A DNA stretch of 64,000 nucleotides from an uncultured Litoreibacter sp. (lineage in GTDB: Bacteria; Pseudomonadota; Alphaproteobacteria; Rhodobacterales; Rhodobacteraceae). The notes under the pieces were generated by a model. The model worked only from the letters and a program-made list of their open reading frames with translations. It was not told the DNA's origin and did no database searches. Below are positions 14,373 through 24,513 of the stretch, piece by piece. The stretch is taken from NCBI GenBank assembly GCA_947501685.1, contig CANMWQ010000001.1, forward strand, positions 620,001-684,000, given 5' to 3'. The position numbers and the translations under genes are program-made. Each line of letters begins with the position of its first letter. Within the stretch, counting starts at the first letter, position 1.

Positions 14373-14458
14373 GAAAAAAAACGGTGACACCGGGAGGAGG
14401 TGCCACCGTCTCTTATCAGTACGGTCCATCCACAAGGGAGGAGGAGGGTTGGACCGTA
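14373..14458 (-). ncRNA. Cuckoo/CcsR-like sRNA: two hairpins with CCUCCUCCC-type loops, the second a terminator with U8
   Basis: Minus strand: stem TACGGTCCA/TGGACCGTA (420-428/450-458) with loop containing CCCUCCUCCUCCC; stem CGGTGnCACC/GGTGnCACCG (382-391/399-408) with UCCUCCC loop, followed by U8. Confidence 0.75.
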
Positions 14459-14459
14459 G

Positions 14460-14545
14460 GGTGCGACGCGCTCTGGGAGGAGGATGAGCGTGCCGCGATA
14501 TTGCGCCGGGCCATCAATCGGGAGGAAATCGGGCCGGGCGCAAAT
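14460..14545 (-). ncRNA. Second candidate cuckoo/CcsR-like hairpin pair, proximal to DUF1127 gene
   Basis: Minus strand: hairpin 503-512/532-541 (9/10 paired) with UUUCCUCCC loop; hairpin CGCTC/GAGCG (469-473/486-490) with CAUCCUCCUCCCA loop. Confidence 0.6.
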
Positions 14546-14548
14546 CTC

Positions 14549-15104: not shown

Positions 15105-16211
15105 ATGACCCCGACACAAGAGCAGATTTTGGCGGCCCTGAGCAGTTTGGGCCTGCCGGATGGCGGAAACCTTGTCTCGCGCGACATGATCCGGGCACTC
15201 TCCATTGACGGCGGTACAGTGCGCTTTGTGATTGAAGTCTCGCCTGACCTGGCCCCGAAATTCACAGGTGTGCGCGACGCAGCGCAAGCCATCGTCAGCC
15301 GCGTGGAGGGGGTCGAGAGCGTCTCAGCCGTGCTGACAGCTCACGGGCCCGCCGCCAAACCTGCCGCCAAACCGAGCGCGCCCCCGCCGGATCTGGACGG
15401 TGCCAAGCCTGCGCTTAAGATTGGCGGCCACCCAACTCCGCAAGCCGAGGCCACCAAACCCTCCGGCGTGGACCGCATCGTGGCCATTGCCTCTGGCAAG
15501 GGCGGGGTGGGCAAATCCACCTTGTCCTCCAACCTCGCCGTGGCGCTGGCCAAACAGGGCCGCAAGGTCGGGCTTCTGGATGCCGATATATATGGGCCGT
15601 CCCAGCCCCGCATGATGGGCGTGTCCGAGCGCCCGAAATCCCCGGACGGTAAAACCATCATCCCGCTGACTGCCCATGGCGTCACCATGATGAGCATCGG
15701 CTTGATGATGGACCCCGACAAGGCGGTGGTCTGGCGCGGCCCCATGCTGATGGGCGCGCTGCAACAGATGATGGGGCAGGTGGAGTGGGGCGAGCTCGAT
15801 ATCCTGCTGGTCGATTTGCCGCCCGGCACGGGCGACGTGCAACTGACGCTCTGCACAAAGACGCAGCTGACCGGGGCCATTGTGGTCTCCACCCCGCAGG
15901 ACGTCGCCCTTCTGGACGCGCGCAAGGCGCTCGACATGTTCAGGACGCTGCACACCCCGGTTCTGGGCCTCGTCGAGAACATGTCTCACTATATATGTCC
16001 GACCTGCGGCACGCAGGCGCATATCTTTGGCCATGGCGGCGTCGCCGCTGAGGCCAAGACGCTGGGTCTGCCTTTCTTGGGTGAAATCCCGCTTGAGCTG
16101 GACATCCGGCTGGCAGGCGACAGCGGCACGCCGATTGCGGCGGGGCAAAGCGCTGTGGCGCAGGCCTATGCCGATTTGGCCCAGCGGCTGGTCGATGGCG
16201 GCATGGCCTAA
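15105..16211 (+). CDS. mrp: Mrp/NBP35-family Fe-S cluster carrier ATPase (ApbC)
   Basis: [26 protein letters not shown]-loop; CPTCG C-terminal motif. Confidence 0.95.
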
Positions 16212-16286: not shown

Positions 16287-16311
16287 TTAACCACAGCTTT
16301 CCTGTGGATAA
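16287..16311. promoter_or_regulatory. Inverted pair of DnaA-box-like 9-mers (TTAACCACA ... TGTGGATAA)
   Basis: TGTGGATAA at 16303-16311 is the perfect reverse complement of TTATCCACA; TTAACCACA at 16287-16295 has one mismatch. Confidence 0.5.
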
Positions 16312-16321
16312 CTTGATCTGC

Positions 16322-16413
16322 GAATCAAAATGACTCAAAAAGAGGTGATTCGTTGGGCCGGGATGGTCTGGCCCCATCGAAAATATCCGCTGGTCAGGGA
16401 AAATTTGGGATTC
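16322..16413. promoter_or_regulatory. Cluster of four GANTC (CcrM) sites
   Basis: GAATC 16322, GACTC 16332, GATTC 16347, GATTC 16409. Confidence 0.6.
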
Positions 16414-16429
16414 CATGGGAATTTATGTG
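16396..16429 (+). promoter_or_regulatory. MraZ-box-like array A: four 10-bp-phased (A/T)GGG units on + strand
   Basis: AGGG 16396, TGGG 16406, TGGG 16416, TGTG 16426. Confidence 0.6.
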
Positions 16430-16514
16430 AAAAAAGTTCAACACAATATCTAGTGGAGGGCGGGTGCGCCAACCGCAACCACGGCCACAAATCTCTCATT
16501 TCCGTGAACAAGTT

Positions 16515-16568
16515 CCCATTGTTACCCATCTAGGCCCATAAATTTCCATTGCTTCCCATATTTCCCCG
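16515..16568 (-). promoter_or_regulatory. MraZ-box-like array B: six 10-bp-phased TGGG-type units on minus strand
   Basis: CCCA at 16515, 16525, 16535, 16555; TCCA at 16545; CCCG at 16565 (TGGG/TGGA/CGGG on minus). Confidence 0.7.
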
Positions 16569-16582
16569 TGTCACAACAGTTT

Positions 16583-16788
16583 CACGGAGAGAGCGGGCTA
16601 ACAAAAAACAAGGGGCACTTAAGAACCCCAAAGGCGACCGAAAAGGTTTCATACAGGCGCCCATTCTCTCCGAACGACGACGGCCCCTGCGCGAGCAGAC
16701 ATCCCCCCAGGTGGCGCGGGACCGTCCTTCCCCAAGCGGGAAACATACGGCGAGTTGATCAGTGGCAGCAGATCAACTCGCCGTTTTT
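16583..16788 (+). ncRNA. UpsM-like 5'-leader RNA of the dcw cluster (5' end approximate)
   Basis: Leader between MraZ boxes and mraZ; long-range stem CGGAGAGA (16585)/TCTCTCCG (16665); ends in perfect terminator. Position matches UpsM of Rhodobacter sphaeroides. Confidence 0.6.
16748..16788 (+). terminator. Rho-independent terminator just upstream of mraZ
   Basis: Perfect 13-bp stem CGGCGAGTTGATC/GATCAACTCGCCG, 10-nt loop, TTTTT. Confidence 0.9.
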
Positions 16789-16835
16789 CATTCAAAACAA
16801 GCTGGGCGGGAGACGAACATAAGGGGTCACATCTC

Positions 16836-17348
16836 GTGGCACAAAGGTTCAGAGGCGAAAGCGTCCACAAGGTGGACAGCAAGGGCAGGGTGTCCATCCC
16901 GGCCCTGTTTCGCCGTGTGCTTGAAGCCGCCGACCCCGAATGGACCTCCGGATTGCAGCCCAATGTCGTGATCGTCTATGGCGGCGCGAGCCAGAAATAC
17001 CTCGATTGCTATACAGTCGACGCGATGGACGAGGTGGACGCCAAGATCTCGGCCTTGCCGCGCGGCTCCAAACGCCGCCGCGCGATGGAACGCATCTTTA
17101 ACGGTCAGACCTTGCCCACCCAGACCGATGACACAGGCCGTTTGGTCCTGCCTGCCCATTTGCGCGAAAAGGTCGGCATCACCGACAAAGCCTATTTCAG
17201 CGCCTCCGGCGACACGTTCCAAATCTGGGAGCCCACCGCCTTCGAGGCCCGTGACGCCGCAATCGAAGAGTTCATCGCCATGGAAGGGGAGGATTTCGAC
17301 CCGCTCACTTGGCTCGATGAAGACCCGTTCCGGCCCGCAGGAGAGTAG
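16836..17348 (+). CDS. mraZ: Transcriptional regulator / division protein MraZ
   Basis: [25 protein letters not shown] start; heads dcw cluster. Confidence 0.93.
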
Positions 17349-17350
17349 CC

Positions 17351-18349
17351 GTGGCAGAGCATGCGCGTGATCTTGAAAATGATGCACCGCACCTGCCGGT
17401 CCTCATTGACGCGATCCTTGACCATGTAGACGCGTCCGGCACATGGCTGGACGGCACATTCGGCGCAGGCGGCTACAGCCGCGCCTTTCTGGACGCAGGC
17501 GCGGATAAGGTAATCGGCGTGGACCGCGACCCGTCGGTCTTTGACCTCGCGGCCCCTTGGATTGGTGATTGCGGCGACCGCCTGACGCTGGTCGCAGGCA
17601 CATTTTCCGACCTCGACACGCTGGCAGGGGACCTGTTGCCGCTCGACGGTGTGGTGCTCGATCTGGGCGTCTCCTCCATGCAGCTGGACCAGCCGGATCG
17701 CGGCTTTTCCTTCCTGCGCGACGGCCCGCTCGATATGCGCATGGGGCAAGACGGCCCCTCTGCGGCCGATCTGGTCAATGGCGCAGATGAGGCGCTGATC
17801 GCCGATATCCTGTTCCAATATGGCGAGGAGCGCGCCTCGCGCCGCATCGCCCGCGCCATTCTCTCGGCCCGCCCGATCACCACCACGGCGGCGCTGGCCG
17901 AGGTGATCGAGAGCGTCTTGCCGAAATCCAAACCCGGCCAAAGCCATCCCGCCACCCGCAGCTTTCAGGCGATCCGCATCGCGGTCAATGACGAGTTTGG
18001 ACAGCTTATCAAAGGCTTGGAGGCCGCGGAGCGCGCCTTGAAACCTGGCGGCCAGCTGGCCGTGGTCAGCTTCCACTCGCTCGAAGACCGCGTGGTCAAG
18101 AAATTCATGGCGTCGCGCGCAGGGGCCACCTCAGGCGGGTCGCGCTATGCGCCTGCGCTGGAAAAAGACGCGCCCACCTTTGATCTGACGCCCCGCCGCG
18201 CCATCGCGGCAGACAAGGACGAGCTGGCCCGCAACCCGCGCTCCCGCTCGGCGAAACTGCGGGTCGCCACCCGCACCGATCAGCCGGCGCGCGACACGGA
18301 CCGCGCGGGGCTGGGCTTGCCAAAACTAGTCGGAAAGGACCTGTTCTGA
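17351..18349 (+). CDS. rsmH: 16S rRNA (cytosine(1402)-N(4))-methyltransferase RsmH
   Basis: [13 protein letters not shown]...[14 protein letters not shown]...[18 protein letters not shown]. Confidence 0.96.
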
Positions 18350-22005: not shown

Positions 22006-23427
22006 ATGGCGCTTTGGACAGCAGCAGAGGCCGTGCAGGCCACAGGCGGCGTGACGGCGTTTGACTGGGAGGTCAGCGGGGTCTCCATCGACACGCGCAC
22101 GCTTGCGGCGGGTGATTTGTTCGTGGCTCTGAAAGACGTGCGCGACGGCCATGAGTTCGTCGCCCAAGCCTTGGAAAAAGGGGCAGGTGCCGCATTGGTC
22201 AGCCATGTGCCGGACGGCCTGCCGGGAGATGCGCCGCTGCTGATTGTGGAGGACGTCCTGCAAGGTCTGGAGGCTCTGGGCCGCGCCGCGCGGGTTCGGA
22301 TGAAAGGCAAGGTCATCGGGGTGACGGGCTCCGTGGGTAAGACCTCCACCAAGGAAATGCTGCGCAGCTGCCTGACCGGGCAGGGGGCCGTGCATGCCGC
22401 CGAGAAAAGCTACAACAACCATTGGGGCGTGCCGTTGACGCTGGCCCGCATGCCGCGCGATAGCGATTTTGCGGTGATCGAGATCGGCATGAACCACCCC
22501 GGCGAAATCGCGCCTCTGGCGCGCATGGCCGATCTGGACGTGGCGCTTGTCACCATTGTGGCCCCGGCGCATTTGGAAGCGTTCGACAATATCGAGGGCA
22601 TCGCCCGCGAGAAAGCCTCCATCTTCGACGGGCTGCGCGCAGGCGGTCAGGCGATCATCAACGGCGATCTCGACGTGACCCCCGTGCTGCGCGACCTCGG
22701 CCCGGACAGCGTGCAAAGCTTTGGCCGCAGCGAGGGGTGCGACTGGCATTTGCTGGATGCCGAGCAGGCGCAGCATACCACGGTCTGCCGCGCGCGCCAT
22801 GACGGCGAGGCGATCCTTTTCAAAATCGCAGCCCCCGGAAAACATTTTGCAATGAACGGCTTGGCCGCTTTGGCGGCCTGCGTGGCGGCAGGGGCTGATC
22901 TAGGGCAATCCGTGATCAATCTGGGCCAATGGCAGCCGCCCCAAGGCCGTGGCCAGCGGCATTTTCTGGGATTGGACGGCTCGGATGAAAGCCGGGGCGT
23001 GGACCTGATTGACGACGCTTATAATGCCAACCCGGCTTCCGTTGGTGCTGCGCTGGACGTGTTGGCGGGGACCAAAACATCGCTCCCCCAAGGCCGCCGC
23101 ATCGCGGTGCTGGGCGACATGAAAGAACTGGGCCCGACAGAGGCCCAACTGCACGCGGCGCTGGCGCGCCATGAGGGGCTGGATCAGCTGGCAGCGGTGC
23201 ATTGCGTGGGGCCCCTGATGCGCCACCTTCACGCGGCATTGCCCGTTGATATCCAAGGCAAATGGGTCGAAACCGCCGCCGAGCTGGCGCCCGAGATGCG
23301 CAAACTGGTGCATGCCGGAGACGTGGTCATGGTGAAGGGCTCATTGTCGATGAAAATGGCGCTGATCGTTGACGCGATCATGAAATTGAGCCAATCGGGG
23401 CAGGCAAAACGCAAGGGGCACCACTAG
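22006..23427 (+). CDS. murF: UDP-MurNAc-tripeptide:D-Ala-D-Ala ligase MurF
   Basis: GVTGSVGKTSTKEML; NNHWGVPLTLAR; DDAYNANPASV. Confidence 0.95.
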   Translation: MALWTAAEAVQATGGVTAFDWEVSGVSIDTRTLAAGDLFVALKDVRDGHEFVAQALEKGAGAALVSHVPDGLPGDAPLLIVEDVLQGLEALGRAARVRMKGKVIGVTGSVGKTSTKEMLRSCLTGQGAVHAAEKSYNNHWGVPLTLARMPRDSDFAVIEIGMNHPGEIAPLARMADLDVALVTIVAPAHLEAFDNIEGIAREKASIFDGLRAGGQAIINGDLDVTPVLRDLGPDSVQSFGRSEGCDWHLLDAEQAQHTTVCRARHDGEAILFKIAAPGKHFAMNGLAALAACVAAGADLGQSVINLGQWQPPQGRGQRHFLGLDGSDESRGVDLIDDAYNANPASVGAALDVLAGTKTSLPQGRRIAVLGDMKELGPTEAQLHAALARHEGLDQLAAVHCVGPLMRHLHAALPVDIQGKWVETAAELAPEMRKLVHAGDVVMVKGSLSMKMALIVDAIMKLSQSGQAKRKGHH

Positions 23428-24513
23428 ATGTTGTATTGGCTGACGCTGTTTTCTGATGGCGGGGATTTCTATAACCTGTTTCGCTACATCACCTTCCGCG
23501 CCGGTGGGGCCTTCTTCACCGCGCTGATATTCGGCTTCATTTTCGGCCGCCCGCTGATCAACCTGCTCAAGCGCAAGCAGCGCCATGGCCAGCCCATTCG
23601 CGATGACGGCCCGGAGGGCCATGTGCTGACCAAGCAAGGCACACCCACGATGGGAGGCGTGCTGATCCTTGGCGCGCTGATCCTCTCGACGCTGCTCTGG
23701 GCGCGGCTCGACAATGGCTATGTCTGGATCGTGCTGCTGGTCACGATGGGCTTCGGTGCCATCGGCTTTGTTGATGATTACGCCAAGGTCACGTCAAACA
23801 GCCATGGCGGCATTTCGGCCAAATCGCGCCTGATCGTGGGCTTTGCCATCGCTGCAGTTGCGGGCTACGCGACCACGCTTTTGCACCCTGAAGGGCTGGT
23901 CAACCAGCTGGCGCTGCCGGTCTTCAAGGACGTGCTGATCAATATGGGCTTCATGTTCATCCCCTTCGCCATGTTCGTCATCGTGGGGGCCGCCAATTCG
24001 GTGAACCTGACGGATGGCCTTGACGGTTTGGCCATCATGCCAGTGATGATCGCCGCAGGCGCGTTGGGCGTCATCGCCTATGCCGTGGGCCGGGTCGATT
24101 TCACCGATTATCTCGGCCTGCATTACGTCCCCGGCACCGGAGAGCTGTTGATCTTCATGGCTGGCATCATCGGCGGCGGCTTGGGCTTTTTGTGGTACAA
24201 CGCCCCTCCGGCGGCCGTCTTCATGGGCGACACCGGCTCGCTGGCCTTGGGCGGCGCGCTTGGCACCATCGCGGTGCTGACCAAGCATGAGCTGGTCATG
24301 GGCATCATCGGCGGGCTCTTCGTGGTCGAGACGCTCAGCGTCATCATTCAGGTGCTCTATTTCAAGAAAACCGGAAAACGCGTCTTCCTGATGGCGCCCA
24401 TCCATCATCACTTTGAGAAAAAAGGCTGGGCCGAGCCGCAGATCGTGATCCGCTTCTGGATCATCTCGCTGATCCTCGCGATGATCGGTCTGGCCACGCT
24501 GAAAATCAGATGA
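23428..24513 (+). CDS. mraY: Phospho-MurNAc-pentapeptide transferase MraY
   Basis: [45 protein letters not shown]. Confidence 0.96.

Follow-up and report, generated by a model that had tools for sequence, protein, structure and literature searches.

The spacer of about 620 bp that separates mrp from mraZ probably combines operator, promoter and attenuator functions for the dcw operon in a composite element conserved throughout the Rhodobacteraceae, in which MraZ autoregulation, CcrM and GcrA, NrdR and the UpsM RNA would all take part. It lies in a window (i.e. the whole stretch of DNA analysed) of 64 kb, from contig C1 of the genome of a marine member of the Rhodobacteraceae that its best named MraZ relatives place near Litoreibacter. 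The architecture of the spacer and its conservation are directly observed in the sequences, and the conserved stack of likely sites together with an RNA stop points to a division switch coupled to the state of DNA replication.

The upstream neighbour, mrp (15105 to 16211, plus strand; Pfam PF10609/PF01883), encodes a P-loop Fe-S carrier and is outside the element. A second Mrp-like gene, 59% identical to that of the window, is present elsewhere in the genome (G000:C6:206921-207961). mraZ (16836 to 17348, plus strand; Pfam PF02381) begins with GTG and is the first gene of the dcw cluster, followed by rsmH starting at 17351 (Pfam PF01795). Comparison of 19 congeners shows that the regulatory block keeps the company of mraZ despite a changed upstream gene. 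mrp is immediately 5′ of the block in only some of them; in others its end is more than 500 bp further up, or it is missing from the 1.5-kb flank.

The family set comprised 117 usable Rhodobacteraceae loci (20 from congeners and 97 from other members, mostly one genome per genus), oriented by the invariant leader sequence; given the kinship among the sampled genomes, related ones are not fully independent. Dinucleotide shuffles and the flanking coding DNA of the same 117 loci served as controls. The density of GANTC is 6.3 per kb in the regulatory stretch, compared with 0.5-0.6 per kb in the flanking coding DNA. The corresponding values are 0.64 and 0 per kb for the exact DnaA box, 3.0 and 0.03 for TGGG-N6-TGGG, and 2.6 and 0 for CCAT-N6-CCAT. 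The loci are strongly enriched, at specific positions, in GANTC clusters, in exact DnaA boxes and in both of the TGGG arrays, and the shuffles are concordant. All of the motifs that a preliminary description had stacked between mrp and mraZ are indeed there, far above chance in the 117 loci by either control. Most of them are kept across the Rhodobacteraceae; the left arm of a DnaA dyad and the fourth GANTC are not, and the second GANTC is kept only in part. A chance accumulation of motifs is extremely improbable. The spacer is richer in AT than the surrounding coding DNA and short motifs are common, but the excess over both shuffles and flanking DNA refutes this explanation for the arrays, the GANTC sites and the NrdR-type box, the two non-conserved elements (the DnaA left arm and the fourth GANTC) being excepted.

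The putative UpsM/mraZ promoter (16549 to 16577, plus strand) consists of a -35 element TTGCTT (16549-16554), a 17-bp spacer and a -10 element CACAAC (16572-16577), and was assigned from conservation in the congeners and from the length of the RNA. The -35 sequence TTG[AC]TT is present in all 19 congeners, and the -10 element in 15 of the 19. This promoter had gone unnoticed in the preliminary description. A scan with the sigma-70 consensus returned nothing at this promoter, and the scan also missed the terminator because of its loop limit. Transcription would start at about 16584, i.e. 252 nt 5′ of mraZ, and the implied RNA from 16584 to 16788 (plus strand) is 205 nt in length. Alignment of 44 loci and folding indicate that this is a UpsM homologue, i.e. 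a structured leader giving an attenuated sRNA; its folding energy has a z of -5.8 against shuffles. An Rfam search of the leader gave no match. The leader ends in an intrinsic terminator (16747 to 16788, plus strand) made of a 14-bp stem (16747-16784) closed by the 10-nt loop AGTGGCAGCA and followed by a T run. Compensatory changes occur at many of the stem pairs in 44 sequences that were chosen for containing the CAGTGGCAGCAG loop. The available part of the account of Rhodobacter sphaeroides UpsM (PMC5089854) describes a 206-nt RNA formed by termination within a 268-nt mraZ leader, with ~1% read-through, and a leader that is general in the Rhodobacteraceae. The window has the same long mraZ leader ending in a strong terminator, an RNA of about that length (~206 nt) and the conserved central structure; MraZ-type arrays, a GANTC cluster and NrdR-type boxes around the promoter do not figure in the part of that account available to us. 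The structured leader and terminator of the preliminary description are the known UpsM leader, as the stem covariation and the folding z score bear out. Elsewhere in the window, an ar14-type sRNA match above the Rfam gathering score is found at 14373-14546 on the minus strand, with a weaker match to CcsR1, adjoining a DUF1127 ORF.

The putative promoter is set within a MraZ-type array on the minus strand (16515 to 16568), in which six TGGG-like units at 10-bp pitch cover the -35 element and the spacer. On the plus strand these read CCCA at 16515, 16525, 16535 and 16555, TCCA at 16545 and CCCG at 16565. Units 3-6 are each found in 15-16 of the 19 congeners, and most of 40 class-wide loci have CCC-N7-CCC pairs 5′ of mraZ. 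A second array, on the plus strand (16396 to 16429), comprises AGGG, TGGG, TGGG and TGTG at 10-bp pitch; the TGGG units at 16406 and 16416 (in 15 and 17 of the 19 congeners respectively) are flanked by weaker ones at 16396 and 16426. In the family, 82% of the 117 loci have a 10-bp G-run pair, compared with 7% in shuffles. The locus encodes MraZ, and each array contains three or more TGGG-type boxes at 10-bp pitch, with six units downstream and four upstream, two being degenerate in each. Many family members have a further plus-strand array 5′ of the GANTC cluster; examples from other genera (L065, L064 and L032) have up to six TGGG units.

In Escherichia coli MraZ binds its own operator, resulting in autorepression. 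The upstream plus-strand array is similar to that operator (TGGGaaattgTGGGgcaaagTGGGa) in both sequence and orientation, and the two systems share TGGG repeats of 10-bp pitch over the mraZ promoter region. They differ in that here there are two or three arrays on opposite strands, and the one embedded in the promoter is inverted. The position of the downstream array within the putative promoter is fitting for MraZ autorepression; since it overlies the -35 element and spacer, MraZ bound there should block the promoter. The two opposed, 10-bp-phased arrays of the preliminary description are present and conserved in congeners and family, and MraZ autoregulation combined with UpsM-type attenuation appears well supported by this conservation and by the published work on R. 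sphaeroides.

The strongest new element is a palindrome at 16441-16456, ACACAATATCTAGTGG, that was overlooked in the first reading. It has the top matrix score in the 64 kb, and its core C[AT]A.AT.T[AT]G is present in 72% of the 117 loci, compared with 2.5% in shuffles. The consensus for NrdR binding is ACACWATATATWGTGT, for which the E. coli sites provide an external check; the box in the window agrees with it at 14 of 16 positions. Using this independent consensus, agreement at 13 or more of the 16 positions is found in 38% of family loci and 60% of genus loci, compared with 0.2% in shuffles. Because the matrix was trained on the loci to which it was applied, it was checked against shuffles and flanking DNA, against the independent consensus and against E. 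coli. Although derived from dcw loci only, the matrix gives its highest ranks within the nrdA and nrdHIEF regions of E. coli to the tandem sites, as pairs 31 bp apart directly 5′ of the genes, and it is on this basis that the palindrome is considered to be an NrdR-type box. This putative box is better conserved than the DnaA box and is also the more informative of the two.

NrdR sites follow a published rule of tandem boxes ~31-32 bp apart (PMC2892513). In many family dcw loci the boxes number two or three and are spaced by 30 and 64-65 bp; a tandem arrangement at 30-31 bp recurs in many members, and a partner offset of +31 stands out. The window has one clear box, with a degenerate candidate partner near 16472 (+31), and no strict-pattern tandem pair was found in its genome. 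Since the box is single in the window we have labelled it NrdR-type, and we regard it as a candidate NrdR operator; the topA gene of Pseudomonas aeruginosa provides a precedent for a single-box NrdR target other than a reductase (PMC4409342). The genome encodes nrdR (G000:C1:599860). Upstream of nrdJ, boxes scoring at least 10 are present in all 12 further genus loci, including that of the same genome, and at least 12 in 10 of these. The palindrome is the same as that of the NrdR operators at ribonucleotide reductase genes, and the tandem spacing of 30-32 bp is shared by the family dcw and nrdJ loci, whereas the target here would be the dcw operon (and ccrM) and the window has a single clear box. 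Strict matches are not enriched over the whole 3.3-Mb genome (five, compared with six for the reversed pattern), and beyond the Rhodobacteraceae the motif is sporadic at mraZ. Another high-scoring NrdR-box-like match in the window, at 23421-23436 where murF stops and mraY starts, was set aside as probably a coding coincidence; it is kept in most congeners and lost where mraY begins with other codons.

One of the five strict matches in the genome is located 5′ of ccrM (L213:1501-1512, i.e. G000:C2:301694-301705). An upstream match with a score above 7 was found at ccrM in 29 of 30 Rhodobacteraceae loci (the same genome and 29 others), scoring at least 13 in 26; in the sole exception (L271) the start call appears to be shifted. 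In most cases the palindrome precedes the ATG by 82-153 bp, and in the further ccrM loci (L258-L287) as in this one a recurrent set of GANTC sites lies between the two. Among the matches listed in a search restricted to the open-access literature, we found no report that ties NrdR to ccrM or mraZ. We propose, tentatively and with slightly more doubt than belief, that NrdR of the Rhodobacteraceae, or another factor that recognizes this palindrome, joins nucleotide supply directly to ccrM and dcw, so that a single signal would time the synthesis of reductase as well as methylation and division, in concert with MraZ, CcrM/GcrA and UpsM attenuation. The palindrome could instead be the site of another Rhodobacteraceae regulator with an NrdR-like palindrome that directly controls ccrM and dcw, NrdR being uninvolved. 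This would be in keeping with the single strong box at ccrM and in the genus of the window, with a second ccrM match that, where present, is 50 rather than 31 bp away, with the failure to find a palindrome near nrdR itself, and with the position of the boxes far 5′ of the putative promoter. We consider it improbable, given that the tandem sites at E. coli nrdA and nrdHIEF, with their 31-bp spacing, are picked up by the matrix, that family dcw loci repeatedly show the canonical spacing between tandem boxes, and that the motif is found 5′ of nrdJ.

NrdR-type control would be accompanied by an input from methylation. Four GANTC sites (at 16322, 16332, 16347 and 16409) lie inside 92 bp, where the window as a whole has 30 (0.47 per kb). 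The first and third form an inverted pair CGAATCA...TGATTCG (16321 to 16352), with the second between them, and are candidate CcrM/GcrA sites. The four sites proposed in the preliminary description are all present, and fare differently in the congeners. The outer GANTC1 and GANTC3 are conserved (16 and 14 of 19), and GANTC2 partly so (9 of 19). GANTC4, which falls within the upstream array, is conserved in none of the 19 and was rejected as a conserved element. In the wider family, one or more GANTC sites fall between -470 and -340 in 91 of 97 loci; nearly all are GAATC or GATTC, with the logo TGATTCG. This sequence, and more broadly YGAKTCK, is the extended motif proposed for activation by GcrA in Caulobacter, and was not seen in Brevundimonas (PMC7987155). 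The genome encodes GcrA as well as a methyltransferase of the CcrM type that has a RAMA domain, so that a YGAKTCK-type site, GcrA and CcrM are all present. An input from CcrM/GANTC at dcw is plausible, because the conserved sites match TGATTCG and both proteins are encoded. Any GANTC is a substrate for CcrM, and yet GACTC and GAGTC are almost missing at the conserved family positions. This could mean that the cluster matters as the site of a protein specific for TGATTCG/CGAATCA and not through methylation; we think this unlikely, since TGATTCG is the very motif proposed for GcrA at methylated sites, and CcrM and GcrA are both encoded. As in the control of Caulobacter ftsZ and mipZ by GcrA and CcrM, the TGATTCG-type sites are 5′ of division genes, while here they are placed before dcw and far 5′ of the putative promoter. 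Sites for GcrA are usually near -10 and -35; no such placement was found here, the GANTC sites being ~230-260 bp 5′ of the predicted start. Elsewhere in the genome, six GANTC sites were noted within ~60 bp just 5′ of rpoD (L209:563-623; G000:C1:596562-596622), which was identified by Pfam sigma-70 region 1. The frame upstream of this rpoD has no Pfam match; our guess is that it is dnaG.

Any input from DnaA appears weak, because the two arms of the proposed dyad are not conserved together and the one remaining box is largely confined to the genus. Both arms of the inverted DnaA-box-like dyad are present (TTAACCACA at 16287-16295 and TGTGGATAA at 16303-16311). The right arm is a candidate DnaA box TTATCCACA (16303 to 16311, minus strand) found in 14 of the 19 congeners. 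The left arm is conserved in 0 of 19, and the dyad was rejected as a unit. The site at 16303 is the only exact TTATNCACA in the 64-kb window, and exact DnaA boxes occur in 23% of the 117 family loci, compared with 0.3% in shuffles.

In the composite reading that we favour, RNA polymerase would start near 16584, with bound MraZ blocking the promoter. Most transcripts would end at 16747-16788 as the UpsM sRNA, by homology with R. sphaeroides, and a minority would read on into mraZ. Upstream are the opposite-strand MraZ-type array, the NrdR-type box, the TGATTCG cluster fitting CcrM methylation and GcrA, and the one DnaA box, largely a feature of the genus; through these dcw transcription would answer to nucleotide supply via NrdR, and to replication-dependent methylation via CcrM and GcrA. 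The suggestion that all of this acts on one promoter region is weakened by the placement of the GANTC and DnaA sites, ~230-280 bp 5′ of the predicted start. Sites 130-280 bp upstream of the start might act by MraZ looping between the opposed arrays, or by a further upstream promoter.

These distances, the single NrdR-type box in the window, the lack of genome-wide enrichment of its strict matches and the location of the GANTC sites beyond the usual GcrA positions all count against the composite reading, as do the R. sphaeroides reporters, which in the available part of that study favour a single promoter, at UpsM, with no second mraZ promoter found (PMC5089854). Control of dcw might then reside solely in the downstream elements (MraZ array, promoter, UpsM and terminator), the upstream block serving some unmapped transcript (for example one antisense to mrp) or a function of the DNA itself (DnaA titration or a hemimethylation mark). 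The opposite orientation of the second MraZ-type array would agree with such a division. This seems to us a minority prospect, though less doubtful than the other alternatives, as the upstream block itself has MraZ-type boxes, and its position relative to mraZ is maintained in diverged genera despite the changed upstream gene.

The composite reading concerns the coupling of division to replication in bacteria outside Caulobacter. The region names concrete conserved sites where nucleotide supply and methylation could converge with MraZ and an attenuating RNA on one division operon, and transcription of the division cluster of the Rhodobacteraceae has to pass a leaky terminator. Control of ccrM as well as dcw by NrdR, if real, would be a direct connection between the supply of DNA precursors and division.
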